From: Sabellastarte sp. h YS-2021
Lineage: Eukaryota > Annelida > Polychaeta > Sabellida > Sabellidae
Assembly: GCA_964017235.1 (NCBI GenBank)
Contig: OZ024930.1
Coordinates: 152,210,221 to 152,274,220 of the forward strand
DNA: 64,000 bases
Reading direction: 5' to 3'
Shown here: in pieces, positions 1 to 40,663 of the stretch
How positions within the stretch are numbered: the first letter of the stretch is position 1
Layout: every line of letters begins with the position of its first letter
Position numbers and translations under genes: made by a program
The notes under the pieces: generated by a model
The model's input: the letters and a program-made list of their open reading frames with translations, nothing else
Database searches by the model: none
What the model was told of the DNA's origin: nothing

Positions 1-64
1 GTGTAGTGGTTATCACATCTGCTTAACACGCAGAAGGTCATGAGTTTGATCCTCATCAAGATCT
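1..64 (+). tRNA. tRNA-Val (AAC), 5' part cut by window edge
   Basis: Bases 10-73 of a tRNA-Val are present; the first nine bases lie outside the window. The anticodon loop TTAACAC sits between TCTGC and GCAGA. The acceptor 3' strand reads CAAGATC, so it would form a G-U wobble at position 2-71 if the missing 5' strand matches the other copies. Confidence 0.85.
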
Positions 65-631
65 GTTGAGAATGTTTTTCTTGATAATTTTCTCTTGCAC
101 CTACTTTGAACTCATACTTAATGTACATTTAAGTGACATGTTTTGTTTATAATTTAGGTGAATCTTAATTGTTTCTGCATTCCCCACATTGATTAGATCT
201 GAGGCATGCATTTATTGTGTTAACATTTATGAAACAAAGGTCTTGGTAAAGCTGTTGTATATTAATGGCATGTCAGAATCTGTGTGATTGTTGAAGGAAA
301 CAATCAAATAATCTATAGATCTTGTTTGTCACAACATTGCAAATTACATCTCAAGAATACTTTGACAAATATTAAATCCTTACTGCTGCATTGTGAGAAT
401 GTTGATGGATAAATGATTACACATTATTTGCATGGTAAGGCTTTCTTATTGATTGTTTCATCTAAATACGTAAAAGTATCCAAAGAGAAATATTTTTGCC
501 ATGTCATTATGTTATATAGTTTTACAAAGGAAACAACCATGGGCAAATATTTGTTATATGTAATGATTTCCTTCAACATAATCAGATAAATGACATACAT
601 CAGGCAATAGTAATGTGTAAGGTTATGTGTG

Positions 632-704
632 GGTCTTGTGGTGTAGTGGTTATCACATCTGCTTTACACGCAGAAGGTCATGAGTTCAATCCTCATCAAG
701 ACCT
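632..704 (+). tRNA. tRNA-Val (TAC)
   Basis: The 73-nt cloverleaf is complete. Acceptor GGTCTTG pairs with CAAGACC, the D-arm has GTGTAGTGGTTATCAC, anticodon stem TCTGC/GCAGA holds loop TTTACAC (anticodon TAC), and T-stem ATGAG/CTCAT holds loop TTCAATC. There is no intron. A TTTT run about 15 bases downstream can serve as the pol III terminator. A and B box positions match the eukaryotic internal promoter. Confidence 0.93.
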
Positions 705-1667
705 GCTTAGAATCTGTATTTTGATAGTTATGTGTTAAATTATCAAAAACCTACTCAAAACACATCACTTAATTGACAGTTAAGTGGTATGGTTTGTTAG
801 CATGCTATATAGTTCATTCTTCTTTGACTCTGTTCACAACAGATCTTAGTTCCCAGACATGCCTATGTTGTGTTGACTTTTATCAGAGTTTTTTTAAAGC
901 CATTGAATGTTAATTCCATGTCTTAAGCTGGGTTTTTGTGGAAGGTAACAAGCAAAGAATCTATAGATCTTGTTAGAAAATTGCATATTATTTTCCAACA
1001 ATACTTAGATCAATAATAACTCAGTGTTGTTGCAATATGCAAAGGATGATGGCTAAAGTATTACAAATTATTTGCATAGTAAAGTTTATTGTGTGTTTCA
1101 ACAACATATGAAAGTGTATCCAAAGATTCAGCAGACTAGAAAAAAAGACAAATATGTTTTCTAGATCAGTATGTTGTGTATTTTTTCCAAAGGAAATGGA
1201 TCTATGTTAATAGTTTCAGTTAATTTTAATGATTTCATTTACAAAATAAGATAAATGAAGCACCGGCAAACATAATAGGAAACAAAGAATTGCACATGAA
1301 AAATTTCCTGAGGCAAAAGTAAATAGACAGCAACCACCAGAAGGACTACAACCTGACATCCCCACTTAAGGAGGTCAATGGCTTATCTGTTGCACCATGG
1401 TGGCTTTAATTTTTCCGTCAGCCATAATTTTATGTAAAATTTACTTTACTTGTTGCTTTCTTCTTCATCTGTTTGAATTAAAAATTTTCAGATAACCAGT
1501 TTACTTTAATTACTGCTGTTACAGCTGCCTTTCCTTAATCTTAAAGGTAATTGTAGAAAAGCAACTGGAAGAGGCAAGCCTTTGTGGGAAATTGTTAAGA
1601 TCATTTCATGTCAGTAGCATTATGCCAACAAGTGGCAAACTATTGAGGATATTTCAGTGTATATGCA

Positions 1668-1740
1668 GGTCTTGTGGTGTAGTGGTTATCACATCTGCTT
1701 AACACGCAGAAGGTCATGAGTTTGATCCTCATCAAGATCT
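1668..1740 (+). tRNA. tRNA-Val (AAC)
   Basis: The 73-nt cloverleaf has anticodon loop TTAACAC and T-loop TTTGATC, so position 56 is T instead of the nearly universal C. The acceptor 3' strand is CAAGATC (one G-U pair), a variant shared only with the copy at the window start. A TTTTT run at 1751-1755 is a good terminator. Confidence 0.9.
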
Positions 1741-2307
1741 GTTGAGAATGTTTTTCTTGATAATTTTCTCTTGCACCTACTTTGAACTCATACTTAATGT
1801 ACATTTAAGTGACATGTTTTGTTTATAATTTAGGTGAATCTTAATTGTTTCTGCATTCCCCACATTGATTAGATCTGAGGCATGCATTTATTGTGTTAAC
1901 ATTTATGAAACAAAGGTCTTGGTAAAGCTGTTGTATATTAATGGCATGTCAGAATCTGTGTGATTGTTGAAGGAAACAATCAAATAATCTATAGATCTTG
2001 TTTGTCACAACATTGCAAATTACATCTCAAGAATACTTTGACAAATATTAAATCCTTACTGCTGCATTGTGAGAATGTTGATGGATAAATGATTACACAT
2101 TATTTGCATGGTAAGGCTTTCTTATTGATTGTTTCATCTAAATACGTAAAAGTATCCAAAGAGAAATATTTTTGCCATGTCATTATGTTATATAGTTTTA
2201 CAAAGGAAACAACCATGGGCAAATATTTGTTATATGTAATGATTTCCTTCAACATAATCAGATAAATGACATACATCAGGCAATAGTAATGTGTAAGGTT
2301 ATGTGTG

Positions 2308-2380
2308 GGTCTTGTGGTGTAGTGGTTATCACATCTGCTTTACACGCAGAAGGTCATGAGTTCAATCCTCATCAAGACCT
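2308..2380 (+). tRNA. tRNA-Val (TAC)
   Basis: Complete cloverleaf identical to the copy at 632: loop TTTACAC, T-loop TTCAATC, acceptor fully paired. A TTTT run lies at 2395-2398. Confidence 0.93.
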
Positions 2381-3344
2381 GCTTAGAATCTGTATTTTGA
2401 TAGTTATGTGTTAAATTATCAAAAACCTACTCAAAACACATCACTTAATTGACAGTTAAGTGGTATGGTTTGTTAGCATGCTATATAGTTCATTCTTCTT
2501 TGACTCTGTTCACAACAGATCTTAGTTCCCAGACATGCCTATGTTGTGTTGACTTTTATCAGAGTTTTTTTAAAGCCATTGAATGTTAATTCCATGTCTT
2601 AAGCTGGGTTTTTGTGGAAGGTAACAAGCAAAGAATCTATAGATCTTGTTAGAAAATTGCATATTATTTTCCAACAATACTTAGATCAATAATAACTCAG
2701 TGTTGTTGCAATATGCAAAGGATGATGGCTAAAGTATTACAAATTATTTGCATAGTAAAGTTTATTGTGTGTTTCAACAACATATGAAAGTGTATCCAAA
2801 GATTCAGCAGACTAGAAAAAAAGACAAATATGTTTTCTAGATCAGTATGTTGTGTATTTTTTCCAAAGGAAATGGATCTATGTTAATAGTTTCAGTTAAT
2901 TTTAATGATTTCATTTACAAAATAAGATAAATGAAGCACCGGCAAACATAATAGGAAACAAAGAATTGCACATGAAAAATTTCCTGAGGCAAAAGTAAAT
3001 AGACAGCAACCACCAGAAGGACTACAACCTGACATCCCCACTTAAGGAGGTCAATGGCTTATCTGTTGCACCATGGTGGCTTTAATTTTTCCGTCAGCCA
3101 TAATTTTATGTAAAATTTACTTTACTTGTTGCCTTCTTCTTCATCTGTTTGAATTAAAAATTTTCAGATAACCAGTTTACTTTAATTACTGCTGTTACAG
3201 CTGCCTTTCCTTAATCTTAAAGGTAATTGTAGAAAAGCAACTGGAAGAGGCAAGTCTTTGTGGGAAATTGTTTAAGATCATTTCATGTCAGTAGCATTAT
3301 GCCAACAAGTGGCAAACTATTGAGGATATTTCAGTGTATATGCA

Positions 3345-3417
3345 GGTCTTGTGGTGTAGTGGTTATCACATCTGCTTAACACGCAGAAGGTCATGAGTTT
3401 GATCCTCATCAAGACCT
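3345..3417 (+). tRNA. tRNA-Val (AAC)
   Basis: Complete cloverleaf with loop TTAACAC and acceptor GGTCTTG/CAAGACC fully paired, unlike the two AAC copies to its left. T-loop TTTGATC (C56 to T). A TTTTT terminator follows 11 bases downstream. Confidence 0.92.
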
Positions 3418-3984
3418 GTTGAGAATGTTTTTCTTGATAATTTTCTCTTGCACCTACTTTGAACTCATACTTAATGTACATTTAAGTGACATGTTTTGTT
3501 TATAATTTAGGTGAATCTTAATTGTTTCTGCATTCCCCACATTGATTAGATCTGAGGCATGCATTTATTGTGTTAACATTTATGGAACAAAGGTCTTGGT
3601 AAAGCTGTTGTAGATTAATGGCATGTCAGAATCTGTGTGATTGTTGAAGGAAACAATCAAATAATCTATAGATCTTGTTTGTCACAACATTGCAAATTAC
3701 ATCTCAAGAATACTTTGACAAATATTAAATCCTTACTGCTGCATTGTGAGAATGTTGATGGATAAATGATTACACATTATTTGCATGGTAAGGCTTTCTT
3801 ATTGATTGTTTCATCTAAATACGTAAAAGTATCCAAAGAGAAATATTTTTGCCATGTCATTATGTTATATAGTTTTACAAAGGAAACAACCATGGGCAAA
3901 TATTTGTTATATGTAATGATTTCCTTCAACATAATCAGATAAATGACATACATCAGGCAATAGTAATGTGTAAGGTTATGTGTG

Positions 3985-4057
3985 GGTCTTGTGGTGTAGT
4001 GGTTATCACATCTGCTTTACACGCAGAAGGTCATGAGTTCAATCCTCATCAAGACCT
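3985..4057 (+). tRNA. tRNA-Val (TAC)
   Basis: Complete cloverleaf, loop TTTACAC, T-loop TTCAATC, acceptor fully paired; same downstream TTTT as its sister copies. Confidence 0.93.
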
Positions 4058-5020
4058 GCTTAGAATCTGTATTTTGATAGTTATGTGTTAAATTATCAAA
4101 AACCTACTCAAAACACATCACTTAATTGACAGTTAAGTGGTATGGTTTGTTAGCATGCTATATAGTTCATTCTTCTTTGACTCTGTTCACAACAGATCTT
4201 AGTTCCCAGACATGCCTATGTTGTGTTGACTTTAATCAGAGTTTTTTAAAGCCATTGAATGTTAATTCCATGTCTTAAGCTGGGTTTTTGTGGAAGGTAA
4301 CAAGCAAAGAATCTATAGATCTTGTTAGAAAATTGCATATTATTTTCCAACAATACTTAGATCAATAATAACTCAGTGTTGTTGCAATATGCAAAGGATG
4401 ATGGCTAAAGTATTACAAATTATTTGCATAGTAAAGTTTATTGTGTGTTTCAACAACATATGAAAGTGTATCCAAAGATTCAGCAGACTAGAAAAAAAGA
4501 CAAATATGTTTTCTAGATCAGTATGTTGTGTATTTTTTCCAAAGGAAATGGATCTATGTTAATAGTTTCAGTTAATTTTAATGATTTCATTTACAAAATA
4601 AGATAAATGAAGCACCGGCAAACATAATAGGAAACAAAGAATTGCACATGAAAAATTTCCTGAGGCAAAAGTAAATAGACAGCAACCACCAGAAGGACTA
4701 CAACCTGACATCCCCACTTAAGGAGGTCAATGGCTTATCTGTTGCACCATGGTGGCTTTAATTTTTCCGTCAGCCATAATTTTATGTAAAATGTACTTTA
4801 CTTGTTGCTTTCTTCTTCATCTGTTTGAATTAAAAATTTTCAGATAACCAGTTTACTTTAATTACTGCTGTTACAGCTGCCTTTCCTTAATCTTAAAGGT
4901 AATTGTAGAAAAGCAACTGGAAGAGGCAAGTCTTTGTGGGAAATTGTTTAAGATCATTTCATGTCAGTAGCATTATGCCAACAAGTGGCAAACTATTGAG
5001 GATATTTCAGTGTATATGCA

Positions 5021-5093
5021 GGTCTTGTGGTGTAGTGGTTATCACATCTGCTTAACACGCAGAAGGTCATGAGTTTGATCCTCATCAAGACCT
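5021..5093 (+). tRNA. tRNA-Val (AAC)
   Basis: Complete cloverleaf, loop TTAACAC, acceptor fully paired, T-loop TTTGATC (C56 to T), TTTTT terminator downstream. Confidence 0.92.
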
Positions 5094-5660
5094 GTTGAGA
5101 ATGTTTTTCTTGATAATTTTCTCTTGCACCTACTTTGAACTCATACTTAATGTACATTTAAGTGACATGTTTTGTTTATAATTTAGGTGAATCTTAATTG
5201 TTTCTGCATTCCCCACATTGATTAGATCTGAGGCATGCATTTATTGTGTTAACATTTATGAAACAAAGGTCTTGGTAAAGCTGTTGTAGATTAATGGCAT
5301 GTCAGAATCTGTGTGATTGTTGAAGGAAACAATCAAATAATCTATAGATCTTGTTTGTCACAACATTGCAAATTACATCTCAAGAATACTTTGACAAATA
5401 TTAAATCCTTACTGCTGCATTGTGAGAATGTTGATGGATAAATGATTACACATTATTTACATGGTAAGGCTTTCTTATTGATTGTTTCATCTAAATACGT
5501 AAAAGTATCCAAAGAGAAATATTTTTGCCATGTCATTATGTTATATAGTTTTACAAAGGAAACAACCATGGGCAAATATTTGTTATATGTAATGATTTCC
5601 TTCAACATAATCAGATAAATGACATACATCAGGCAATAGTAATGTGTAAGGTTATGTGTG

Positions 5661-5733
5661 GGTCTTGTGGTGTAGTGGTTATCACATCTGCTTTACACGC
5701 AGAAGGTCATGAGTTCAATCCTCATCAAGACCT
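5661..5733 (+). tRNA. tRNA-Val (TAC)
   Basis: Complete cloverleaf, loop TTTACAC, T-loop TTCAATC, acceptor fully paired. Confidence 0.93.
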
Positions 5734-6696
5734 GCTTAGAATCTGTATTTTGATAGTTATGTGTTAAATTATCAAAAACCTACTCAAAACACATCACTTA
5801 ATTGACAGTTAAGTGGTATGGTTTGTTAGCATGCTATATAGTTCATTCTTCTTTGACTCTGTTCACAACAGATCTTAGTTCCCAGACATGCCTATGTTGT
5901 GTTGACTTTAATCAGAGTTTTTTAAAGCCATTGAATGTTAATTCCATGTCTTAAGCTGGGTTTTTGTGGAAGGTAACAAGCAAAGAATCTATAGATCTTG
6001 TTAGAAAATTGCATATTATTTTCCAACAATACTTAGATCAATAATAACTCAGTGTTGTTGCAATATGCAAAGGATGATGGCTAAAGTATTACAAATTATT
6101 TGCATAGTAAAGTTTATTGTGTGTTTCAACAACATATGAAAGTGTATCCAAAGATTCAGCAGACTAGAAAAAAAGACAAATATGTTTTCTAGATCAGTAT
6201 GTTGTGTATTTTTTCCAAAGGAAATGGATCTATGTTAATAGTTTCAGTTAATTTTAATGATTTCATTTACAAAATAAGATAAATGAAGCACCGGCAAACA
6301 TAATAGGAAACAAAGAATTGCACATGAAAAATTTCCTGAGGCAAAAGTAAATAGACAGCAACCACCAGAAGGACTACAACCTGACATCCCCACTTAAGGA
6401 GGTCAATGGCTTATCTGTTGCACCATGGTGGCTTTAATTTTTCCGTCAGCCATAATTTTATGTAAAATGTACTTTACTTGTTGCTTTCTTCTTCATCTGT
6501 TTGAATTAAAAATTTTCAGATAACCAGTTTACTTTAATTACTGCTGTTACAGCTGCCTTTCCTTAATCTTAAAGGTAATTGTAGAAAAGCAACTGGAAGA
6601 GGCAAGTCTTTGTGGGAAATTGTTTAAGATCATTTCATGTCAGTAGCATTATGCCAACAAGTGGCAAACTATTGAGGATATTTCAGTGTATATGCA

Positions 6697-6769
6697 GGTC
6701 TTGTGGTGTAGTGGTTATCACATCTGCTTAACACGCAGAAGGTCATGAGTTTGATCCTCATCAAGACCT
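6697..6769 (+). tRNA. tRNA-Val (AAC)
   Basis: Complete cloverleaf, loop TTAACAC, acceptor fully paired, T-loop TTTGATC (C56 to T), TTTTT terminator downstream. Confidence 0.92.
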
Positions 6770-7335
6770 GTTGAGAATGTTTTTCTTGATAATTTTCTCT
6801 TGCACCTACTTTGAACTCATACTTAATGTACATTTAAGTGACATGTTTTGTTTATAATTTAGGTGAATCTTAATTGTTTCTGCATTCCCCACATTGATTA
6901 GATCTGAGGCATGCACTTATTGTGTTAACATTTATGAAACAAAGGTCTTGGTAAAGCTGTTGTAGATTAATGGCATGTCAGAATCTGTGTGATTGTTGAA
7001 GGAAACAATCAAATAATCTATAGATCTTGTTTGTCACAACATTGCAAATTACATCTCAAGAATACTTTGACAAATATTAAATCCTTACTGCTGCATTGTG
7101 AGAATGTTGATGGATAAATGATTACACATTATTTGCATGGTAAGGCTTTCTTATTGATTGTTTCATCTAAATACGTAAAGTATCCAAAGAGAAATATTTT
7201 TGCCATGTCATTATGTTATATAGTTTTACAAAGGAAACAACCATGGGCAAATATTTGTTATATGTAATGATTTCCTTCAACATAATCAGATAAATGACAT
7301 ACATCAGGCAATAGTAATGTGTAAGGTTATGTGTG

Positions 7336-7408
7336 GGTCTTGTGGTGTAGTGGTTATCACATCTGCTTTACACGCAGAAGGTCATGAGTTCAATCCTCAT
7401 CAAGACCT
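7336..7408 (+). tRNA. tRNA-Val (TAC)
   Basis: Complete cloverleaf, loop TTTACAC, T-loop TTCAATC, acceptor fully paired. Confidence 0.93.
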
Positions 7409-8371
7409 GCTTAGAATCTGTATTTTGATAGTTATGTGTTAAATTATCAAAAACCTACTCAAAACACATCACTTAATTGACAGTTAAGTGGTATGGTTTG
7501 TTAGCATGCTATATAGTTCATTCTTCTTTGACTCTGTTCACAACAGATCTTAGTTCCCAGACATGCCTATGTTGTGTTGACTTTAATCAGAGTTTTTTAA
7601 AGCCATTGAATGTTAATTCCATGTCTTAAGCTGGGTTTTTGTGGAAGGTAACAAGCAAAGAATCTATAGATCTTGTTAGAAAATTGCATATTATTTTCCA
7701 ACAATACTTAGATCAATAATAACTCAGTGTTGTTGCAATATGCAAAGGATGATGGCTAAAGTATTACAAATTATTTGCATAGTAAAGTTTATTGTGTGTT
7801 TCAACAACATATGAAAGTGTATCCAAAGATTCAGCAGACTAGAAAAAAAGACAAATATGTTTTCTAGATCAGTATGTTGTGTATTTTTTCCAAAGGAAAT
7901 GGATCTATGTTAATAGTTTCAGTTAATTTTAATGATTTCATTTACAAAATAAGATAAATGAAGCACCGGCAAACATAATAGGAAACAAAGAATTGCACAT
8001 GAAAAATTTCCTGAGGCAAAAGTAAATAGACAGCAACCACCAGAAGGACTACAACCTGACATCCCCACTTAAGGAGGTCAATGGCTTATCTGTTGCACCA
8101 TGGTGGCTTTAATTTTTCCGTCAGCCATAATTTTATGTAAAATGTACTTTACTTGTTGCTTTCTTCTTCATCTGTTTGAATTAAAAATTTTCAGATAACC
8201 AGTTTACTTTAATTACTGCTGTTACAGCTGCCTTTCCTTAATCTTAAAGGTAATTGTAGAAAAGCAACTGGAAGAGGCAAGTCTTTGTGGGAAATTGTTT
8301 AAGATCATTTCATGTCAGTAGCATTATGCCAACAAGTGGCAAACTATTGAGGATATTTCAGTGTATATGCA

Positions 8372-8444
8372 GGTCTTGTGGTGTAGTGGTTATCACATCT
8401 GCTTAACACGCAGAAGGTCATGAGTTTGATCCTCATCAAGACCT
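8372..8444 (+). tRNA. tRNA-Val (AAC)
   Basis: Complete cloverleaf, loop TTAACAC, acceptor fully paired, T-loop TTTGATC (C56 to T), TTTTT terminator downstream. Confidence 0.92.
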
Positions 8445-9010
8445 GTTGAGAATGTTTTTCTTGATAATTTTCTCTTGCACCTACTTTGAACTCATACTTA
8501 ATGTACATTTAAGTGACATGTTTTGTTTATAATTTAGGTGAATCTTAATTGTTTCTGCATTCCCCACATTGATTAGATCTGAGGCATGCACTTATTGTGT
8601 TAACATTTATGAAACAAAGGTCTTGGTAAAGCTGTTGTAGATTAATGGCATGTCAGAATCTGTGTGATTGTTGAAGGAAACAATCAAATAATCTATAGAT
8701 CTTGTTTGTCACAACATTGCAAATTACATCTCAAGAATACTTTGACAAATATTAAATCCTTACTGCTGCATTGTGAGAATGTTGATGGATAAATGATTAC
8801 ACATTATTTGCATGGTAAGGCTTTCTTATTGATTGTTTCATCTAAATACGTAAAGTATCCAAAGAGAAATATTTTTGCCATGTCATTATGTTATATAGTT
8901 TTACAAAGGAAACAACCATGGGCAAATATTTGTTATATGTAATGATTTCCTTCAACATAATCAGATAAATGACATACATCAGGCAATAGTAATGTGTAAG
9001 GTTATGTGTG

Positions 9011-9083
9011 GGTCTTGTGGTGTAGTGGTTATCACATCTGCTTTACACGCAGAAGGTCATGAGTTCGATCCTCATCAAGACCT
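9011..9083 (+). tRNA. tRNA-Val (TAC)
   Basis: Complete cloverleaf with loop TTTACAC. The T-loop here is TTCGATC, the textbook B-box core, instead of TTCAATC. Only this copy and the next TAC copy (10686) have it. Confidence 0.94.
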
Positions 9084-10046
9084 GCTTAGAATCTGTATTT
9101 TGATAGTTATGTGTTAAATTATCAAAAACCTACTCAAAACACATCACTTAATTGACAGTTAAGTGGTATGGTTTGTTAGCATGCTATATAGTTCATTCTT
9201 CTTTGACTCTGTTCACAACAGATCTTAGTTCCCAGACATGCCTATGTTGTGTTGACTTTTATCAGAGTTTTTTAAAGCCATTGAATGTTAATTCCATGTC
9301 TTAAGCTGGGTTTTTGTGGAAGGTAACAAGCAAAGAATCTATAGATCTTGTTAGAAAATTGCATATTATTTTCCAACAATACTTAGATCAATAATAACTC
9401 AGTGTTGTTGCAATATGCAAAGGATGATGGCTAAAGTATTACAAATTATTTGCATAGTAAAGTTTATTGTGTGTTTCAACAACATATGAAAGTGTATCCA
9501 AAGATTCAGCAGACTAGAAAAAAAGACAAATATGTTTTCTAGATCAGTATGTTGTGTATTTTTTCCAAAGGAAATGGATCTATGTTAATAGTTTCAGTTA
9601 ATTTTAATGATTTCATTTACAAAATAAGATAAATGAAGCACCAGCAAACATAATAGGAAACAAAGAATTGCACATGAAAAATTTCCTGAGGCAAAAGTAA
9701 ATAGACAGCAATCACCAGAAGGACTACAACCTGACATCCCCACTTAAGGAGGTCAATGGCTTATCTGTTGCACCATGGTGGCTTTAATTTTTCCGTCAGC
9801 CATAATTTTATGTAAAATTTACTTTACTTGTTGCTTTCTTCTTCATCTGTTTGAATTAAAAATTTTCAGATAACCAGTTTACTTTAATTACTGCTGTTAC
9901 AGCTGCCTTTCCTTAATCTTAAAGGTAATTGTAGAAAAGCAACTGGAAGAGGCAAGTCTTTGTGGGAAATTGTTTAAGATCATTTCATGTCAGTAGCATT
10001 ATGCCAACAAGTGGCAAACTATTGAGGATATTTCAGTGTATATGCA

Positions 10047-10119
10047 GGTCTTGTGGTGTAGTGGTTATCACATCTGCTTAACACGCAGAAGGTCATGAGT
10101 TTGATCCTCATCAAGACCT
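10047..10119 (+). tRNA. tRNA-Val (AAC)
   Basis: Complete cloverleaf, loop TTAACAC, acceptor fully paired, T-loop TTTGATC (C56 to T), TTTTT terminator downstream. Confidence 0.92.
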
Positions 10120-10685
10120 GTTGAGAATGTTTTTCTTGATAATTTTCTCTTGCACCTACTTTGAACTCATACTTAATGTACATTTAAGTGACATGTTTTG
10201 TTTATAATTTAGGTGAATCTTAATTGTTTCTGCATTCCCCACATTGATTAGATCTGAGGCATGCACTTATTGTGTTAACATTTATGAAACAAAGGTCTTG
10301 GTAAAGCTGTTGTAGATTAATGGCATGTCAGAATCTGTGTGATTGTTGAAGGAAACAATCAAATAATCTATAGATCTTGTTTGTCACAACATTGCAAATT
10401 ACATCTCAAGAATACTTTGACAAATATTAAATCCTTACTGCTGCATTGTGAGAATGTTGATGGATAAATGATTACACATTATTTGCATGGTAAGGCTTTC
10501 TTATTGATTGTTTCATCTAAATACGTAAAGTATCCAAAGAGAAATATTTTTGCCATGTCATTATGTTATATAGTTTTACAAAGGAAACAACCATGGGCAA
10601 ATATTTGTTATATGTAATGATTTCCTTCAACATAATCAGATAAATGACATACATCAGGCAATAGTAATGTGTAAGGTTATGTGTG

Positions 10686-10758
10686 GGTCTTGTGGTGTAG
10701 TGGTTATCACATCTGCTTTACACGCAGAAGGTCATGAGTTCGATCCTCATCAAGACCT
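10686..10758 (+). tRNA. tRNA-Val (TAC)
   Basis: Complete cloverleaf, loop TTTACAC, T-loop TTCGATC (canonical B box, shared with the copy at 9011). Confidence 0.94.
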
Positions 10759-11721
10759 GCTTAGAATCTGTATTTTGATAGTTATGTGTTAAATTATCAA
10801 AAACCTACTCAAAACACATCACTTAATTGACAGTTAAGTGGTATGGTTTGTTAGCATGCTATATAGTTCATTCTTCTTTGACTCTGTTCACAACAGATCT
10901 TAGTTCCCAGACATGCCTATGTTGTGTTGACTTTTATCAGAGTTTTTTAAAGCCATTGAATGTTAATTCCATGTCTTAAGCTGGGTTTTTGTGGAAGGTA
11001 ACAAGCAAAGAATCTATAGATCTTGTTAGAAAATTGCATATTATTTTCCAACAATACTTAGATCAATAATAACTCAGTGTTGTTGCAATATGCAAAGGAT
11101 GATGGCTAAAGTATTACAAATTATTTGCATAGTAAAGTTTATTGTGTGTTTCAACAACATATGAAAGTGTATCCAAAGATTCAGCAGACTAGAAAAAAAG
11201 ACAAATATGTTTTCTAGATCAGTATGTTGTGTATTTTTTCCAAAGGAAATGGATCTATGTTAATAGTTTCAGTTAATTTTAATGATTTCATTTACAAAAT
11301 AAGATAAATGAAGCACCAGCAAACATAATAGGAAACAAAGAATTGCACATGAAAAATTTCCTGAGGCAAAAGTAAATAGACAGCAATCACCAGAAGGACT
11401 ACAACCTGACATCCCCACTTAAGGAGGTCAATGGCTTATCTGTTGCACCATGGTGGCTTTAATTTTTCCGTCAGCCATAATTTTATGTAAAATTTACTTT
11501 ACTTGTTGCTTTCTTCTTCATCTGTTTGAATTAAAAATTTTCAGATAACCAGTTTACTTTAATTACTGCTGTTACAGCTGCCTTTCCTTAATCTTAAAGG
11601 TAATTGTAGAAAAGCAACTGGAAGAGGCAAGTCTTTGTGGGAAATTGTTTAAGATCATTTCATGTCAGTAGCATTATGCCAACAAGTGGCAAACTATTGA
11701 GGATATTTCAGTGTATATGCA

Positions 11722-11794
11722 GGTCTTGTGGTGTAGTGGTTATCACATCTGCTTAACACGCAGAAGGTCATGAGTTTGATCCTCATCAAGACCT
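11722..11794 (+). tRNA. tRNA-Val (AAC), last well-preserved copy
   Basis: Complete cloverleaf, loop TTAACAC, acceptor fully paired, T-loop TTTGATC (C56 to T), TTTTT terminator downstream. The unit that begins here is broken 390 bp later by the insertion at 12186. Confidence 0.92.
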
Positions 11795-12185
11795 GTTGAG
11801 AATGTTTTTCTTGATAATTTTCTCTTGCACCTACTTTGAACTCATACTTAATGTACATTTAAGTGACATGTTTTGTTTATAATTTAGGTGAATCTTAATT
11901 GTTTCTGCATTCCCCACATTGATTAGATCTGAGGCATGCATTTATTGTGTTAACATTTATGAAACAAAGGTCTTGGTAAAGCTGTTGTAGATTAATGGCA
12001 TGTCAGAATCTGTGTGATTGTTGAAGGAAACAATCAAATAATCTATAGATCTTGTTTGTCACAACATTGCAAATTACATCTCAAGAATACTTTGACAAAT
12101 ATTAAATCATTATTGCTGCATTGTGAGAATGTTGATGGATAAATGATTACACATTATTTGCAAGGTAAGGCTTTCTTATTGATTG

Positions 12186-12923
12186 GACATTAGTGGTATG
12201 TTAATTTTAAGCACTTGCAATCTTTAATGAGTTTGTTATCATTGTCTGTAACTATTTGATATGTCATTTATTTATCATTATGTTTTCATGTCATGTTATA
12301 ATTGTTTAGCATAATGTTCTCACTTGTGATTCTGTCTTACTTATATCTTTGCACAATGTTTATTCAGTATAAACTTAGTCAAGGTAGTGCACTCTTATAT
12401 GATTCTTCATACTTGCTAACATATTTTTACATTCAACAGTTACATTTACATGATATTATTTCATCTGATTGGATTTTATTTCTCTCACTGTCATTTAACT
12501 TTCTTGAGGTGGGTTGGGCTTGCTTTATGTCTAAATTCATAGTCTTGTGGAACCTTTACATTCTTCTCAAATTATATGGTTTCCCGTTACTAAATTTATT
12601 ACCTTTCTATGTAGTGTTTTGATATTTGACCTTGTGTGACTTTTTACCTGTTATAATTTCTTGGGTCATTTATCCCTCCCTTTTTGGGGTAGGGTTTGCT
12701 TTGTTATGTCACAACAGTGGTCCTTTATTTGCTAGTGGTTGGGTTGACCTTTTATCTGACCTTTTATGTAATGCATTTCAAAGTCAAAGTTAAATGCCAT
12801 GATATATACTGGTGTGAATTATTCAGGTCTGTAGATTTTGTTTTAGTAATCCCATTTATTTACTTGTTGTTGGAAATAAATAATCCCATGTTGCATTTTT
12901 CTTGTTGGGGGACTGGGGGAATG
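12186..12923. mobile_element. 738-bp insertion in the array, flanked by an 11-bp direct repeat
   Basis: The repeat unit stops after CTTATTGATTG at 12175-12185 and resumes with the same 11 bases at 12924-12934, so the intervening 738 bp look inserted with a target duplication. The insert is T-rich on the + strand, has no inverted ends, no poly(A) tail and no recognisable protein. Two T-rich open frames overlapping it (12302-12622 and 12696-13028) look like chance hydrophobic translations. The class of element is unknown. Confidence 0.6.
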
Positions 12924-13307
12924 CTTATTGATTGTTTCATCTCAATATCAAAGTGTATCCAAAGGGTCACCTTACTGACAAAGGGAAATACCATGTCATT
13001 AAGTTATATAGTTTTACAAAGGAAATAATAATGGATAAATATTTATTATATCTAATGATTTATTTTGACATAATCAATGTAAGGATTTGCATGGTAAGGC
13101 TTTCTTACTGATTGTTTAATCTAAATATTAAAGTGTATCCAAAGGGCCACCTTATGGACAAAGACATGTATTTTTGCAATGTCGTTATGTTGTTTCATTC
13201 ACAAAGGAAATAACCATGGGTAAATATTTGTTGTATCTAATGATTTTCTTCAACATAATCATATAAATGACAAAAATCAGGAAATAGTAATGCATGGGGT
13301 TGTGTGT

Positions 13308-13382
13308 GGTTCTTGATGGTGTAGTGGTTATCACATCTGCTTTACACTCAGAAGATCATGAGTTTGATCCTCGTCAAGACTT
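13308..13382 (+). pseudogene. degenerate tRNA-Val (TAC)
   Basis: The copy occupies the TAC position of the decayed unit. It has two extra bases near the acceptor/D-arm junction, a C-T mismatch in the anticodon stem (TCTGC against TCAGA), changes in the variable region and a broken acceptor end (CAAGACT). The loop still reads TTTACAC. Folding into a functional tRNA is doubtful. Confidence 0.7.
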
Positions 13383-14306
13383 GCTTGCTTGTTTTGATAA
13401 TTATATCTTAAATTATCAAAAACATGCTTAAAACCATAACTTAATTGACAGTTGAGTCTCATGGTTTGGTAGCATGCTATTTAGTTCATTCTTCTTTGAC
13501 TCTGTTCACAACAGATCTTAGTTCTTAGACATGCGTATCTTGTGTTGACTTATGTCAGTGATATTAAAAGCCATTGAATGTTACTTCCATGTTAGAACTG
13601 TGTTTTTGTTGAAGGTAATGAGTAAATAATCTATAGATCTTGTTTGTTGGAAAATTGCAAATTATTTTCCAACAATACTTAGATCAACAATACCTCTTGC
13701 AACATGCAAAGGGTGATGGGTAAAGTATTCAACAAAAATTGTAAGTGTATCCAAAGATTCAGCTGACTAGAAAAAATACAAATACTCTCTTTCTACATCA
13801 GTATGTTATGTAGTTTTCCAAAGGAAACAGATCGATGTTAATAGTTCTAGTTAATTGTAATGATTTCATTCACAAAATCATACAAATGAAGCAGAGGCAA
13901 ATACAAAGTGAGAAGTAAAGAATTGCACAACATGAAATATTTCCCGAGGCAAAAGTAAATATACAGTAACCACCAGCAGGAGTACAAATTAAAATCAGTG
14001 CTTAAGAAGGTGGATGGTTTATCCATTGCACCATGGTGCCTTTGTTTTTGTTGAGTTAGCCATAATTTTATGTAAAATTTATTTTACTTGATGCTTTCTT
14101 TTTAATATGTATGAATTCAGTATTTTCAGATAACCAGTTTACTTTAATTATTGTTGTTACAGCTACCATTCCTTAATCTTAAAGGTAATTGCAGAAAAGC
14201 AAATGTAAGAGACAAGTCTTTGTGGGAAATTTTTTAAGATCATTTCATGTCAGAAGCATTATGCTAACAAGTAGCAAAGTATTGAGGGTATTTAATTGTA
14301 TATGTG

Positions 14307-14379
14307 GGTCTTGTGGTGTAGTGGTTATCATATATGCTTCACATGCAGAAGGTCATGAGGTTAATCCTCATCAAGACCT
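14307..14379 (+). pseudogene. tRNA-Val-like copy with CAC anticodon
   Basis: It lies at the AAC position of the decayed unit. The acceptor GGTCTTG/CAAGACC is fully paired and the T-stem is intact. The anticodon loop reads TTCACAT, which gives CAC, still a valine anticodon. There is one A-G mismatch in the anticodon stem (TATGC/GCAGA) and the T-loop is GTTAATC, so T54 of the B box is lost. Probably a pseudogene, but a working tRNA-Val(CAC) cannot be excluded. Confidence 0.6.
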
Positions 14380-14743
14380 CTTTGGAATGTTTTTCTTGAT
14401 AATTTTCTCTTGCACCTACTTTGAACTCATTACTTAATTTACATTTAAGTGACATGTTTTGGTTACAATTTAGGAAAAAATCAAATAATTTGTAGATCTT
14501 GTTTATTACAACATTGTAAGTTACATCTCAAGATTGGTTTGACAAATATTAAAACATTATTGCTGTATTGTGAAAATGTTGATGGATGAATGAGTACACA
14601 CTATTTGTATAGTAACGCCTTCTTATTGAATGGTAAGGGAAATATTTTGCCATGTCATTATGTTACAAAGTTTTACAAAGGAAATAACAATGGGTAAATA
14701 TTTGATTAGATAAATGACAAACATTAGGAAATAGTGATGTGTG

Positions 14744-14761
14744 GGTCTAGTGGTGTACTGG
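14744..14761 (+). pseudogene. tRNA-Val 5' fragment at the array end
   Basis: Eighteen bases corresponding to the acceptor strand and D-arm start (GGTCTAG then TGGTGTACTG) lie at the expected TAC position. The rest is missing and the MITE-like sequence GGGCCGATTTCAC follows at once. No second half is found beyond that element, so the array appears truncated here. Confidence 0.6.
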
Positions 14762-15236
14762 GGCCGATTTCACTAAAGGACTTAAACTAAGTTCCTTTAT
14801 TGGCTAAGTCAGGGATTTTAATCTAAGACTTTGGTCTTAGCTAGGTCTGGGACTTAAATAGATTTCACAAGGGTGACTAAGCTAAGTCCGAGCTTATAAC
14901 CACAGTGGTTTTCTGTGTCATGTGACCTTTTATATCCATTCAAAATATAATATTGGTGCCATATATCCTTCATTTGATGTATTTTATCTAAGGATATGGG
15001 CTGTTTTGAAATGGAAACCTTGTTGCCACACATAAACTTCCAGCAGACTACTTTAGTGGGGTGTTCTGTGTAATTATACTTTATTTACAGCCTTTTCAAA
15101 TTTTGAAGTGGAGAAAAGTTTATGGCAGCCATATTTAAGTCCTCTTTACAAAATTTAAGCCTACTACCTCCCGACTTAAAGTTAAGTCCACTGACATAGC
15201 AATTTCATGGACTTAGCTGCTTTGTGATCTCTTGTA
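14762..15236. mobile_element. MITE-like element, family of GGGCCCGTATTCACG (copy 1)
   Basis: Starts GGGCCGATTTCAC and is rich in short palindromic ACTTAAG/CTAAGTC motifs at both ends. Its core (ACCACAGTGGTTTTCTGTG, then a shared stretch through TTTATTTACAGCC) matches the copy at 22,758-23,343 closely and in the same order. The right terminal repeat has decayed, so the end is approximate. No coding capacity: a non-autonomous DNA transposon. Confidence 0.75.
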
Positions 15237-16397
15237 CATTTCTCTGTCTTTTCTTGAGCAGTTGTTCACAGGCAGCTTGAAGGAAATGGGTAAACTGCAT
15301 CATCCCTCAAATGATCTATCAGCCTCCAGGTTGAAGCTTGTTCATGCCTAAGTGTTTGACGAAAAGAATTGTTCCATCCTTCACACTAATTATTGGTGCA
15401 GTCATCTCCACCAAATCGAATCTTGTGAACCTTCCACATTTTCACAGGGTACTTGAAAGGAACTATTCAATGCAAAACTTATTTGCATGTATGACTATGC
15501 AAATAAGTAGATATAAAGTAACTTTATTATCAAAATATGTCATTTTTAGATTGAAATATTTTTAAAATATTGGGATTTGTTTGGGATTTGTTTATGTGAC
15601 AATGTCTATGCTATGTATAATTTGTTGTGAGTTTCTCAAGTTATTATATTGATTTGTCCTTATATTAAGACAGCAAGTGATTTTTTTTTTGTGTTTCGTG
15701 CATTGAAAGTACTTACATCCATAAAATACTTTATCAGAATTAACAGTTAGTCTTTACAAAAATTACAGAATCATCACATCATACAAAATTTTCAATGTGG
15801 CACTCCATAACATCAATGAAATAATTCAAGACGAACCCAACTATAAGGTTGCAAATCTTAAAATGGCAATATACTAAACAAACTAGTCCAGAACTTTCAG
15901 ATAAATGCTTAATAAGGTAATACTTTTTATAATTGATAATTTCAATAAACCATGTTTAAAATCATCATCATTGTCAAGCAATACACCTTAACTACAAAAC
16001 ATTATTCAACAATTTAAGAACATTTTAATTTAAAATGAAAAAAATGTAATATTTATAAGGGAAAAATACACAAGCTAAAATGTGTCATTTTTATTGATCA
16101 CTTATAAAAATACATTGCTAATGTTAGATTTTAATAAATTATAGAAAAAATATTTCCCCAAATAACCATCAATATTAAGTATAAAACGTTTTCAATTTTA
16201 AATGTTTCAAATGATTTACCCAAATTTAACAGTAACTTGGAACTTTCTAGTCATCATAAATTATATTACAATATCAAAATATTCATATATCAAATACTTT
16301 ACCAGAATCAACAGGTTTTACATAATTACAAAATGATCATATCATTCAAAATTGGCACCAGAAAACTTGACTGAAGTAATTAAAGAAAAATCCAACT
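15237..16397. other. AT-rich stretch without recognisable gene
   Basis: Only short open frames, none with domain-like composition. No tRNA, inverted ends or long repeats seen. Confidence 0.6.
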
Positions 16398-17530: not shown

Positions 17531-18120
17531 CACATGGGGGCGCTGGCTGGGCAGGAGGACAGAGTTTAAGAAGACAGAGGGGAGAAGACTGAGGGGAGAA
17601 CATGCTGTCATATATCCCAAGTAATCCAAGAACTTTTATTTAGCAAAGTGTCACCTCCCAAAAATAACCCCAAGTTTCCAACAATTTAATTCAAATTCAA
17701 TTTCACCAAAAATATTCCCCATCACAAATACCAATCCATCCCACACTCAGTTGAAAAAAGTAAATTATATCACTTACAGATTCAAACCTAAGTCCTCACT
17801 TAACAAAGTTGCCATCCCACCCCAACAAGACTTGGCTTTATTCTCTGAAAAAATAATTTACAAAGTGGTATTAAAAAAAAGTTTCCAAATAAATACCTGG
17901 AAATATTTCCTGCAAAGAATTCACAAGAATTTAAAAAAAATGCTAGAAAATTTGCAAAACAAAATTATACAAGCTTTGCAGTCCCAGTTAAATAAATTTT
18001 TTTTCGGGTTATCAATCCATTGCCACTCACATTTCTGTAAATTTTGTTAGGCCTCACATTTGTTGGTGTGTCAGTGTGGATATGGCTGTTTATTTAAAGT
18101 GGGGTTTTGGGAGACAGGGG

Positions 18121-18225
18121 CGTGGGTTTGAGTCTGAATCTTGGTTTTTGAGGGACGTGGGTTTGAGTCCACATCTTGGTTTATGAGGGACGTGGGTTTG
18201 AGTCCACATCTTTGTTTTTGGGGGT
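18121..18225. repeat. three tandem copies of a 35-bp repeat
   Basis: Units begin at 18121, 18156 and 18191 with CGTGGGTTTGAGTC. They lie between the 3' ends of the two convergent Harbinger genes, in a T- and G-rich stretch. Confidence 0.8.
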
Positions 18226-27747: not shown

Positions 27748-28755
27748 CTAGTGAGTAGGGGAAAGGTAGAGATGCTTCTGAAAATTTTTGGCCACCTCAT
27801 GAGAGGAACTATGATCAAGGGTGATGTATCTCCAGACGCATTCCGACGTCCAGGTGCCATGGCTCTGGATATGTTGAAGTGGAACATTGGAATTAAAGGC
27901 GAAAGAGGCACCTGAACGACGGAATGCGTGGAATGTGAGATTGGAATTTTGGAGATTTAGTTTTGACAATAGATTTTTAAAATGTCGCCTAACCTGGTTG
28001 TCTGTGAGGGGAAGCCACTTAGTGGAAGTCTTATATTGAAACAGGGGTGAGTTGTTTGATCCAGGGGTGATTTGAAGCAAATTTTTTATGGCCCTAACTG
28101 GACAAATGGGGTTAGAACCCAGATCCGGAATTTTTAAAATTTTGACAGATTTCCTATCCTGTATAGTTTTACTCCATTTGACAATTATGTGAAGGCCTGG
28201 GTTTGCAAACAAGATGTCACCTCTGGCTAGGTGGTAGAGGGGGGAAAAAGTTTTTATTGAATGAGGGACTAAGTTAGATAACCTTAAAAATGAGAAAAAA
28301 GCCAGAGTATAAACAGCTTTAAACACTTGTCCCATGTAAGTAGCGTCACAGGCTCTAACCATTAGTTGGAGGGTATCAATATCAATGACACTTTTAAGTG
28401 CGGGTTTGAAAGATGATCTAAGTGTGACAGCTCGTTGAAAATATTTAATTCTGGGGTCTTGAAAGATGAGGGTGGGGATTCCATACAATGACAGATTTGC
28501 TTTAATAGCCGCCAAGTGGTTTGCCAGGGTGGGGCTTGACAAGCCATTGGAAGCTAGAAATTGAAGATAGGCTACTATTGTCATAGGTTGCAGTGCAAGA
28601 AGCGAGACTTGCATAAATACTGTGACGGCTATGAATAGCCTAAACATACTTTGATAACTGCTTGTAGTACCAGGTCTAAATGCCAATTTGGTCTTCTTGG
28701 CTGCTTCTTTGGCCAAGGGAGCCAATCTAGGCGGCAAGCCTGTCAAATACACCAA
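27748..28755 (-). CDS. tyrosine recombinase of DIRS-like retrotransposon
   Basis: A 335-residue recombinase that would join the circular cDNA of the element to the genome in place of an integrase. The N-terminal half is a helical core-binding-like domain. The C-terminal catalytic domain shows the first Arg in FLRLSNL, a Lys-containing strand around VKWSKT, the HxxR motif in HAFRRSGA, the second His in IQSHGTW and the nucleophile Tyr in WRYI, so the catalytic set is complete. The first ATG overlaps the end of the RT-RNase H frame by 13 bp, a usual arrangement in DIRS elements; the real start may lie upstream if translation reinitiates or shifts frame. No internal stop. Probably functional. Confidence 0.9.
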   Translation of the reverse strand: MVYLTGLPPRLAPLAKEAAKKTKLAFRPGTTSSYQSMFRLFIAVTVFMQVSLLALQPMTIVAYLQFLASNGLSSPTLANHLAAIKANLSLYGIPTLIFQDPRIKYFQRAVTLRSSFKPALKSVIDIDTLQLMVRACDATYMGQVFKAVYTLAFFSFLRLSNLVPHSIKTFSPLYHLARGDILFANPGLHIIVKWSKTIQDRKSVKILKIPDLGSNPICPVRAIKNLLQITPGSNNSPLFQYKTSTKWLPLTDNQVRRHFKNLLSKLNLQNSNLTFHAFRRSGASFAFNSNVPLQHIQSHGTWTSECVWRYITLDHSSSHEVAKNFQKHLYLSPTH

Positions 28756-30428: not shown

Positions 30429-30464
30429 TGGTATAAATCCTACCTTGAGGGAATTTTGTTTATC

Positions 30465-39880: not shown

Positions 39881-40663
39881 ATATGTTGGATTATATCATA
39901 TCGTTGTTTGATGTTGGTATTGATTTCTCCTGGGATGTGGCAAAAGCCAGCCAAGCAGTGCCCCTATGCAGAATGAAGCAAGGAGAGCTGTCAGACTATA
40001 GCCAGGTAGACAAGAGAGATAGGATTAGAAGAGCCAATACTCAGCGTCACTATCATCCAGGTGTTGCAAATCATTCTTCCAAGAAATTTTCACAAAAGTC
40101 CTAGAAATGCATGACTTGCAACTACTTTAATCTAGGCACCTACTCCGATACCAAAACTCACGAGACAAGGGGGGTCTTGTATGGACATGTATGTTCACAC
40201 TGTTTGGCACAGGTCAAGTATTTCAATCACCCAGGGATTGAATGTAGAGAAAAAATAAGAAGCATCCAAAAATGAATAAAGGTGGGTGGGCATGGTCTCA
40301 TGTCCACCAATGGTAAAAAAACTAGAACATATTTTTCAACAGTTTACTCTAGGGCTAAAGAAGATTCAAATCTTGACAAACATAGCTTTATGTCATTTTG
40401 CCCGTTTGAATTCCTATCAAAAGGTTACAAAACATAAGACTTATGCTGAGGCACTAAAGTCAGAAATTTTTTTGTAACAGTCATGTTCATTCTGGCAAAG
40501 AAAAATCAGTAATTGATGATACTCACAAAGGTACACACAGATGTGATGTCACGCAGACGAATCAGACAAAGGTCAATGTGACCAAGTGCCTTAACAAAAT
40601 CCCCAACACAAACAACCTGAATCTAATGTCTTGTGTAATAGGTTTCACGTATTGCAACAACAT

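Follow-up and report, generated by a model that had tools for sequence, protein, structure and literature searches.

Tandem arrays of U73-type valine tRNA genes in Sabellastarte sp.: an apparent amplified second valine tRNA gene set

Why does an animal genome hold valine tRNA genes by the dozen in a single tandem array, and are such genes a selected part of the tRNA supply or an inert repeat? The question is raised by a 64,000-nucleotide stretch of Sabellastarte sp. h YS-2021 (assembly GCA_964017235.1, contig OZ024930.1, positions 152,210,221 to 152,274,220), hereafter the window, in which 7.27 head-to-tail units of 1675–1677 bp fill positions 1–12185, each with one TAC and one AAC tRNA-Val gene (Table 1).

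Structure and extent of the arrays

With at least one tRNA gene in every head-to-tail unit, the locus is a tandem tRNA gene array, here called array A. ARAGORN called 15 genes in the window, namely seven TAC and seven AAC tRNA-Val genes in strict alternation and a diverged TAC copy at 13308. The Rfam tRNA model scored the 14 whole array copies at 60–68 bits, the AAC copy cut by the window edge (1–64) at 41.1 bits and two degenerate copies at 34.0 (at 13310) and 47.7 bits (at 14307). Gene ends were taken from Rfam (632–704, 1668–1740, etc.), one base inside the ARAGORN start. Measured spacings are 1675–1677 bp for the unit, 1036–1037 from TAC to AAC and 639–640 from AAC to TAC, and together with both gene callers they confirm the original prediction of at least seven 1.68-kb units carrying two valine isoacceptors at fixed spacing. 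Each of the 14 complete window copies is paired at 20/20 stem positions, with one G-U in a single copy. These cloverleaf calls rest on the covariance model in place of single-strand folding, in which the cloverleaf was never the minimum-energy structure for the six copies tried (z-scores -1.0 to -2.0).

Pairwise, the window units differ by 0–9 substitutions. Their similarity declines with distance, an equally good correlation being found in 4 of 5040 orders, with the observed order and its mirror among the four. Therefore, neither chance nor simple copying by the assembler explains the array. It had been expected to continue past the left edge of the window, as is borne out by the cut AAC copy and by further units in the assembly. 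Its size, previously left open, is now settled for one assembly: 92.5 kb and 54 segments, of which 48 are full units, with 51 TAC and 52 AAC genes, and its right-hand end is the part that falls in the window. Full units are 99–100% like the reference unit, compared with ~70% identity between half-units and 86% to an older unit at the array edge, and array A is in this sense homogenised. Within that older unit, conservation of the tRNAs (67/73) does not significantly exceed that of the flanking sequence (p 0.08 and 0.34). Two different inserts interrupt array A. A 173-bp insert inside it terminates in a tail like those of mollusc SINEs, which serves as a lead only.

A sister array, array B, of ~157 kb, lies 5.8 Mb from array A on the same chromosome and the opposite strand, and alternates tRNA-Val(CAC) (70 exact matches) with tRNA-Arg(CCT) (79 matches). 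Two of the 11 array Arg(CCT) copies read agree at 73/73 with the dispersed genes, which lie on C11 and C19. A scan of the tRNA core against viral_contigs gave 0 matches.

Table 1. Features at the right-hand end of array A, in window coordinates
Feature	Position	Strand	Basis
Right end of array A, 7.27 units of 1675–1677 bp	1..12185	+	unit comparison
tRNA-Val(AAC), cut by window edge; array runs on leftward	1..64	+	Rfam
tRNA-Val(TAC), T-loop TTCAA, U73	632..704	+	Rfam
tRNA-Val(AAC), B box C56T, G2-U71 pair, U73	1668..1740	+	Rfam
tRNA-Val(TAC), T-loop TTCAA	2308..2380	+	Rfam
tRNA-Val(AAC), B box C56T	3345..3417	+	Rfam
tRNA-Val(TAC), T-loop TTCAA	3985..4057	+	Rfam
tRNA-Val(AAC), B box C56T	5021..5093	+	Rfam
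tRNA-Val(TAC), T-loop TTCAA	5661..5733	+	Rfam
tRNA-Val(AAC), B box C56T	6697..6769	+	Rfam
tRNA-Val(TAC), T-loop TTCAA	7336..7408	+	Rfam
tRNA-Val(AAC), B box C56T	8372..8444	+	Rfam
tRNA-Val(TAC), intact T-loop TTCGA	9011..9083	+	Rfam
tRNA-Val(AAC), B box C56T	10047..10119	+	Rfam
tRNA-Val(TAC), intact T-loop TTCGA	10686..10758	+	Rfam
tRNA-Val(AAC), B box C56T, inside last, truncated unit	11722..11794	+	Rfam
Insert of ~738 bp, at which the homogenised zone of array A stops; 11-bp direct repeat CTTATTGATTG at 12175–12185 and 12924–12934	12186..12923	.	junction letters
Older, unhomogenised unit, ~86% like array; small internal duplications and deletions	12924..14633	+	alignment
Degenerate TAC copy with two broken pairs and one extra base following the acceptor arm	13310..13381	+	Rfam
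Degenerate copy, anticodon CAC, one broken pair	14307..14379	+	Rfam
5' stub of further tRNA copy, truncated by unrelated sequence	14744..14761	+	–

One tRNA body with three anticodons

The commonest TAC, AAC and CAC array tRNAs differ from one another at a single site, wobble base 34, and all carry the A35 and C36 of a valine anticodon. Between the TAC and AAC consensus sequences this is 1 difference in 73, whereas the spacers agree at 70.5% of 471 aligned columns (Fisher 3.9e-9). The commonest CAC form accounts for 7 of the 13 copies read in three stretches of array B; its flanks are 65–67% (downstream 200 bp) and 46–50% (upstream 100 bp) like those of array A in a global comparison. Moreover, the CAC unit contains an internal control in the form of two Val-tRNA relics, which match at 58/73 and 51/73 (Fisher 2.6e-4 and 1.0e-6, respectively, against 1 difference in 73).

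When the CAC unit is aligned locally to that of array A, tRNA included, identity reaches 83% over 202 columns on the TAC side and 78% over 208 on the AAC side, slightly above the figures of the global downstream comparison.

It had been proposed that the spacers are as conserved as the genes. Among units of array A this stands, with 10/146 tRNA sites and 87/1530 spacer sites variable (p 0.58), and per-copy constraint therefore now looks weak. Between half-units it does not, as the tRNAs agree at 70–71/73 and the downstream spacer at ~70%. Since cloverleaf and valine anticodons were kept while the spacers diverged, these appear to have been working tRNA genes through that time. Ectopic gene conversion restricted to the tRNA bodies could mimic selection, yet it ought to wipe out the anticodon differences.

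Discriminator base and dispersed valine genes

Comparison of the array body with the two dispersed TAC genes shows pairing preserved at every stem difference. Against the gene on C2 there are 9 differing sites, made up of 4 base pairs altered at both partners and 1 unpaired site; against that on C1 there are 12, made up of 5 base pairs altered at both partners, 1 altered at one partner and 1 unpaired site. No pair is broken in either comparison. T73 is present in 100/100 motif-found copies (99 from array A, 1 degenerate) and in 13/13 CAC copies read, and position 73 is invariant across an alignment of the 51 TAC and 52 AAC copies of array A. The array copies thus lack the canonical discriminator A73, described as a universal valine determinant (PMC9976931, in part). 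Both dispersed TAC genes are likewise U73, and six dispersed AAC/CAC genes are A73. Of the further valine features given in PMC9023262 (in part), the U13-U22 mismatch and D-arm GUGU are found in the array tRNAs. The acceptor stem GUUUCCG is not, the arrays having GGUCUUG; however, the dispersed A73 genes deviate too (GGUUCAG), and therefore the acceptor stem does not separate the arrays from the rest. A pattern search for TAC genes returned only the two known dispersed U73 genes, and patterns with A9 or with a human-type anticodon stem gave 0 matches each. The TAC search would miss genes that differ in the start of the T stem, in the T-loop or in the anticodon loop, so that an A73 TAC gene may still exist beyond its reach.

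Promoters and coupling of the isoacceptors

The internal promoters change along array A. Of its AAC copies, 39/52 keep C56 of the B box and 13/52 have C56T, the latter confined to the 13 right-hand segments; B boxes are intact in segments 1–41 of 54. All TAC copies retain C56 (51/51), with A57 in 10/51 and an A-box T11A in 3/51, and the B-box CpG is retained in 39/52 AAC and 41/51 TAC copies. That the AAC copies are dead, as C56T in every AAC copy of the window might imply, was rejected on the array-wide count. T4/T5 runs occur 11–15 nt downstream of the window array copies, a weak signal given that ~20% of unit positions have T4 or longer within 25 nt.

The original prediction read the alternation as a built-in stoichiometry, which the data support only in part. 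The alternation is real, and a change in the number of whole units must shift AAC and TAC jointly. However, the CAC isoacceptor sits in array B, coupled to tRNA-Arg(CCT), and therefore unit number does not tie all three valine isoacceptors together. Moreover, with C56 lost from right-end AAC copies, including those in the window, gene number and expressible number probably diverge there. The AAC/TAC pairing probably has a simple historical cause: a shorter one-tRNA unit was duplicated, the wobble base changed in one copy and the dimer was amplified.

Alternative explanations

Array A is poor in CpG (o/e 0.146, against 0.361 in the left and 0.311 in the right flank; 0.08 in consensus spacers), which suggests germline methylation, possibly silencing. 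Formerly working tRNA genes that are now an inert, methylated tandem repeat resized by unequal exchange would account for this scarcity, for tRNA sites that vary like spacers, for the decay of B-box CpGs throughout the right-hand 13 segments and for U73 in the array tRNAs. We nevertheless regard such a silent satellite as unlikely. B boxes are intact over three quarters of the segments, and three isoacceptors sit on an unchanged body while the relics decayed. CpGs survive in the tRNAs and were lost from the spacers (4 consensus CpGs over 146 tRNA sites versus 3 over 1530 spacer sites; Fisher 0.0015), and the array B unit (CpG o/e 0.35) is not depleted compared with the flanks.

A structural role, in which the tRNA genes are barriers or insulators bound by Pol III and TFIIIC and their transcripts are by-products, has a precedent in the human 1q23.3 tRNA repeat (PMC4041453, in part) and would fit promoters retained while spacers change. 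It is improbable here, as the whole cloverleaf, acceptor and T stems included, has been kept with compensatory changes, which exceeds the needs of the A and B boxes, and the anticodons remain valine. A mobile origin, with a tRNA-bearing element (a Helenus-type TRIM or a tRNA-derived SINE) copied in tandem, is brought to mind by fish Helenus LTRs that aligned with human tRNA-Val, by one zebrafish Helenus family found in tandem arrays and by Helenus in bivalves (PMC10886601, in part). We consider this very unlikely: the two tRNAs have unrelated upstream sequences (no match better than E 0.6), without the sharing on both sides typical of LTRs, whilst head-to-tail repetition of the one-tRNA unit reaches ~40 bp short of the next tRNA (116 columns, 70.7%, E 8.7e-10). 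As to a polypurine tract, the unit has no purine or pyrimidine run of at least 12 bases, although it does contain TGG sites such as might begin a primer-binding site. The T-arm and acceptor end of the array tRNA occurs in 167 places, of which all 100 matches listed fall in the two arrays. Finally, long near-identical units assemble poorly, and the size in one assembly may not be the true number; but a falsely expanded or mis-joined repeat is scarcely credible given unit-specific variants in blocks, similarity that declines with distance, two different inserts, degenerate edges and the examined 324 kb of assembly being free of N.

Origin and possible role

The arrays look like a selected, hugely amplified second valine tRNA gene set in an animal genome. 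Their history was probably one in which a U73 tRNA-Val(TAC) gave rise to AAC and CAC forms by wobble shifts, selection kept the copies, and amplification and homogenisation followed. A ~0.64-kb one-tRNA unit with a U73-type tRNA-Val(TAC) would have been duplicated, as the spacer homology supports. Copies would then have altered wobble base 34 alone, so that AAC and CAC came to share that body; that the bodies are identical is observed, and the direction of change we infer. Amplification of the AAC/TAC dimer and of the related CAC/Arg(CCT) unit would have produced the two arrays, 5.8 Mb apart, that are seen in the assembly. Unequal exchange or gene conversion would homogenise the units, mostly between neighbours, with edges escaping and decaying, in keeping with the pattern described above. 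Through the long divergence of the spacers, selection very probably held the whole cloverleaf and the valine anticodons.

At present, Pol III initiating from the internal A and B boxes and stopping at T4/T5 runs may yield a large extra valine tRNA supply, which would differ in body type from that of the dispersed A73 genes. By analogy with zebrafish, the likeliest use of the arrays is in tRNA supply to the egg or early embryo, a possibility that we put forward tentatively. More speculatively, there may be two valine sets, with a few dispersed A73 genes (AAC, CAC) for ordinary cells and amplified U73 arrays (AAC, TAC and CAC, with Arg(CCT)) that are activated in the egg or under some other special condition, TAC existing solely in the U73 form. 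If so, the valyl-tRNA synthetase must tolerate U73. The arrays also make two ideas testable, namely that tRNA gene sets can be stage-specific and that valine tRNAs can lack the discriminator base described as universal. Moreover, wobble-only differences amid far-drifted spacers offer a clean natural experiment on whether selection, gene conversion or both keep amplified tRNA genes intact.

Comparison with known tRNA gene arrays

Tandem tRNA genes occur in other animals, such as the 3.18-kb tRNA repeat of Xenopus; a literature search over titles and the beginnings of abstracts found no valine tRNA array of comparable kind. The parallels that follow are with the cited parts of the respective papers. 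On the long arm of zebrafish chromosome 4, clustered repetitive tRNA genes encode maternally deposited tRNAs (PMC11417395), and as in Sabellastarte there are many repeated copies whilst other isodecoders are single dispersed genes. Here, however, one U73 body serves three valine isoacceptors that differ solely at base 34. Moreover, zebrafish Val-AAC isodecoders rise in share late, at 10 and 24 hpf, and isodecoders found at every stage are represented in both settings (PMC11417395); therefore the analogy is not one-to-one.

The human 1q23.3 tandem repeat (7.3-kb unit, 9–43 copies), for which a barrier or insulator role was proposed, likewise has head-to-tail units with several tRNA genes each, and its tRNA genes outlast their spacers (PMC4041453). 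Our unit, in contrast, measures 1.68 kb, has an AT-rich, CpG-poor composition where the human one is GC-rich, and carries Val or Val and Arg only. Entamoeba arrays share long, homogenised runs of units with 1–5 tRNA types under concerted evolution, but there most tRNA genes are arrayed, whereas dispersed genes coexist with arrays here (PMC2652664). The tDNA clusters of Nematostella and teleosts have at least fifty members, which in several species run mostly in parallel; that survey counted clusters within 1000 nt, and its cited part does not describe a wobble-only isoacceptor set (PMC2888827). Lastly, an anticodon change in a redundant tRNA copy is known to create another isoacceptor (PMC3923123). 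The arrays of Sabellastarte extend this to three valine anticodons that appear to have arisen on one body inside amplified arrays.

Extent and layout of the valine array

The window opens with the right end of a head-to-tail array (array A) with a period of 1675–1677 bp, in which ARAGORN and the Rfam tRNA model place a tRNA-Val(TAC) gene followed 1036–1037 bp further on by a tRNA-Val(AAC) gene. The left window edge truncates an AAC gene. We also examined 260 kb leftward of the window (324 kb in all, containing no N bases) in the same assembly (1.786 Gb, 647 contigs), where the window occupies C4:152210221-152274220. As the original prediction held, the array continues past this edge; it spans 92.5 kb with every match on one strand. 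It comprises 54 segments (>97% identity, >600 bp), 48 of them full units with 99–100% identity to the reference unit, and 51 TAC and 52 AAC genes were taken into its alignment. The left border lies at unit position 75, just beyond the expected 3′ end of a TAC gene, and that TAC gene is absent. Further left ARAGORN found no tRNA in 18 stretches, the other two of the 20 scanned being array. Two inserts lie inside the array, one of ~173 bp and one of 5,423 bp; the latter has inverted ends (181 columns at 97.8%), contains no ORF of at least 150 aa and, by its looks, may be a non-autonomous DNA transposon. The last unit in the window ends at a ~738-bp insert flanked by an 11-bp direct repeat, right of which lies an older unit, ~86% similar to array A, that contains a degenerate TAC tRNA, a second degenerate tRNA whose anticodon is CAC, and the stub of a third.

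Positions of the arrays, single genes and further features (C4, contig OZ024930.1; C1 and C2, other contigs of the assembly)
Feature	Position	Strand	Remarks
Array A, entire	C4:152129884-152222405		
Array A, part in window	window 1-12185		
5,423-bp insert in array A	C4:152192797-152198219		~2577-7999 of stretch L002
CAC fragment	C4:158064658		
CAC genes of array B	C4:158066859-158223913	opposite to array A	
Dispersed tRNA-Val(TAC)	C1:83732908		
Dispersed tRNA-Val(TAC)	C2:138082148		
35-bp repeat, x3	window 18116-18224		unit resembles the T-arm of a tRNA with its B box
Reverse transcriptase (RVT_1) match	window 27751-30464	minus	beside a tyrosine-recombinase match just below its Pfam cut-off; the arrangement of DIRS-type elements
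Stretch partly 73-78% like that at 52339	window 33305-34223	minus	with the latter, perhaps a duplicated transporter gene
Long open frame	window 38209-39963	minus	strong reverse transcriptase match; non-LTR element by its looks
Stretch partly 73-78% like that at 33305	window 52339-53433	minus	MFS_1 transporter match below Pfam cut-off
Tandem repeat	window 62507-63529		155-bp unit, 6.7 copies, 78% matches

A sister array and dispersed genes

Searching the whole genome for exact matches to a pattern of the D-arm and anticodon arm gave 170 places, which divide 100 to 70 between the two strands. Among the 100 matches listed, 97 fell in array A, two were single TAC genes (stretches L027 and L028) and one was a CAC fragment. 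When base 34 had to be C or G, the pattern matched 71 places, all CAC: this fragment and, on the opposite strand, 70 in a second array on the same contig (array B), 5.8 Mb away and opposite in strand to array A. Its CAC genes are mostly spaced at 1659–1660 bp or multiples. Within three 10-kb stretches (L030, L037, L038) they are accompanied by tRNA-Arg(CCT), alternating regularly in L030 and L037. A pattern for Arg(CCT) matched 82 places in the genome: array B accounts for 79, and contigs C7, C11 and C19 carry one apiece. Two of the 11 array copies read are identical to the C11 and C19 genes at 73/73 positions. Long parts of the CAC unit are homologous to the array A unit, one of them in inverted orientation, and the unit further contains the decayed relics of two Val tRNAs, one of which is inverted. 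The two single genes are the sole dispersed tRNA-Val(TAC) genes found; a pattern allowing other T-stems returned these and nothing more, and a stricter one, too strict, gave 0 matches.

One tRNA body with three anticodons

The commonest TAC, AAC and CAC sequences (36/48 and 32/51 motif-found copies, and 7/13 copies in the three stretches, respectively) are alike at 72/73 positions, base 34 being the sole difference. The TAC and AAC half-unit spacers share 70.5% identity over 471 columns, and pairwise comparison of the three types gives 65–67% identity over the 200 bp downstream and 46–50% over the 100 bp upstream. At the spacer rate, 73 positions would show no more than one difference with a probability of 2.6e-10. 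The relics in the CAC unit (58/73 and 51/73 matches) show what becomes of tRNA copies without selection.

Compared with the array body, the dispersed TAC gene on C1 shows 12 differences and that on C2 shows 9. Four pairs of the C2 gene are changed doubly with pairing kept, alongside one unpaired change; the C1 gene has five double changes, one single change involving G-U and one unpaired, and neither has a broken pair. These pair-keeping differences indicate that the body evolved as a tRNA. Array TAC differs from the dispersed AAC gene at 25 sites, base 34 among them, and array AAC lies one base from array TAC. Therefore, the array AAC gene is the product of a wobble shift and does not descend from the dispersed AAC genes. 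With the dispersed TAC genes as the nearest relatives found, we infer that the shift ran from TAC to AAC and CAC.

T occupies the discriminator position in every one of the 100 motif-found copies, of which 99 belong to array A and one is the degenerate copy at window 14307. The base is invariant in the array A alignment, and T is shared by 13/13 CAC copies read and both dispersed TAC genes; six other dispersed genes (three AAC, three CAC) carry A73. The Arg(CCT) genes, both the 11 array copies read and the three dispersed ones, likewise have T as N73. According to PMC9976931, canonical tRNA-Val conserves A73, which serves as a universal determinant. Thus, despite their valine anticodons and U13-U22, described as a valine tRNA feature (PMC9023262), the array genes are not classed as canonical tRNA-Val. 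The presence of U73 in the dispersed TAC genes suggests a trait of the lineage's TAC type rather than decay.

State of the array copies

Variable sites in array A number 10/146 in the tRNAs versus 87/1530 in the spacers, so that there is no sign of stronger present-day constraint on single copies. The B-box CpG is intact in segments 1–41; segments 42–54 have lost it in their AAC copy (13/52), and TTCAA occurs in 10/51 TAC copies (segments 43–52). With the losses confined to right-hand segments, the window displays the array at its worst. Loss of a methylated CpG would produce either change. In yeast, C56G is reported to cut TFIIIC binding 370-fold (PMC11811891), and by extension C56T would probably weaken it as well.

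CpG observed/expected is 0.146 in array A versus 0.361 and 0.311 in its flanks, where single 10-kb stretches spread over 0.19–0.51. Along the window, the first two 8-kb stretches (1–16000) have 0.115 and 0.125 and the other six 0.246–0.355; the array B unit, at 0.35, shows no such shortage. Four of the seven consensus CpGs of array A lie within the 146 tRNA bases. Similarity is highest between neighbouring units: 4/5040 orders of the seven window units, including the observed order and its mirror, correlate as strongly. Averaged over the 48 full units, neighbours have 6.2 differences and units at a distance of 40 have 13.1; the only pair separated by 47 units has 10.0.

Interpretation

We propose that selection acted on working tRNA genes over a long time and that amplification with concerted evolution followed, upkeep of single copies being relaxed and the edges decaying. 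A U73 body common to three anticodons in two arrays argues for a function of the set. The main rival is a silent satellite; it keeps this place because array A has lost CpGs and its copies show no constraint today, and we consider it rather unlikely. The original prediction also saw a built-in stoichiometry in the pairing of two valine isoacceptors. This idea stands to the extent that both genes are present in each unit, and no further: CAC lies outside it, Arg(CCT) is coupled to CAC, and at the right end decay of the B box probably breaks the link between the number of genes and their output.

Comparison with known systems

Tandem tRNA arrays are known from Entamoeba (PMC2652664), human 1q23.3 (PMC4041453) and zebrafish, large tRNA gene clusters are reported for Nematostella and teleosts (PMC2888827), and isoacceptor shifts have been described (PMC3923123). 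Our search of titles and abstract openings did not bring up a set of isoacceptors that share a single body, sit in sister arrays and differ in discriminator from the dispersed genes; the combination is apparently new. In zebrafish, isodecoders already in eggs are reported to come from repetitive regions and later-rising ones from scattered genes (PMC11417395). The layout here is similar, the A73 genes being isolated and the U73 genes repetitive; by analogy, the arrays may supply the egg. The analogy is not one-to-one, as the Val-AAC share in zebrafish rises late (PMC11417395).
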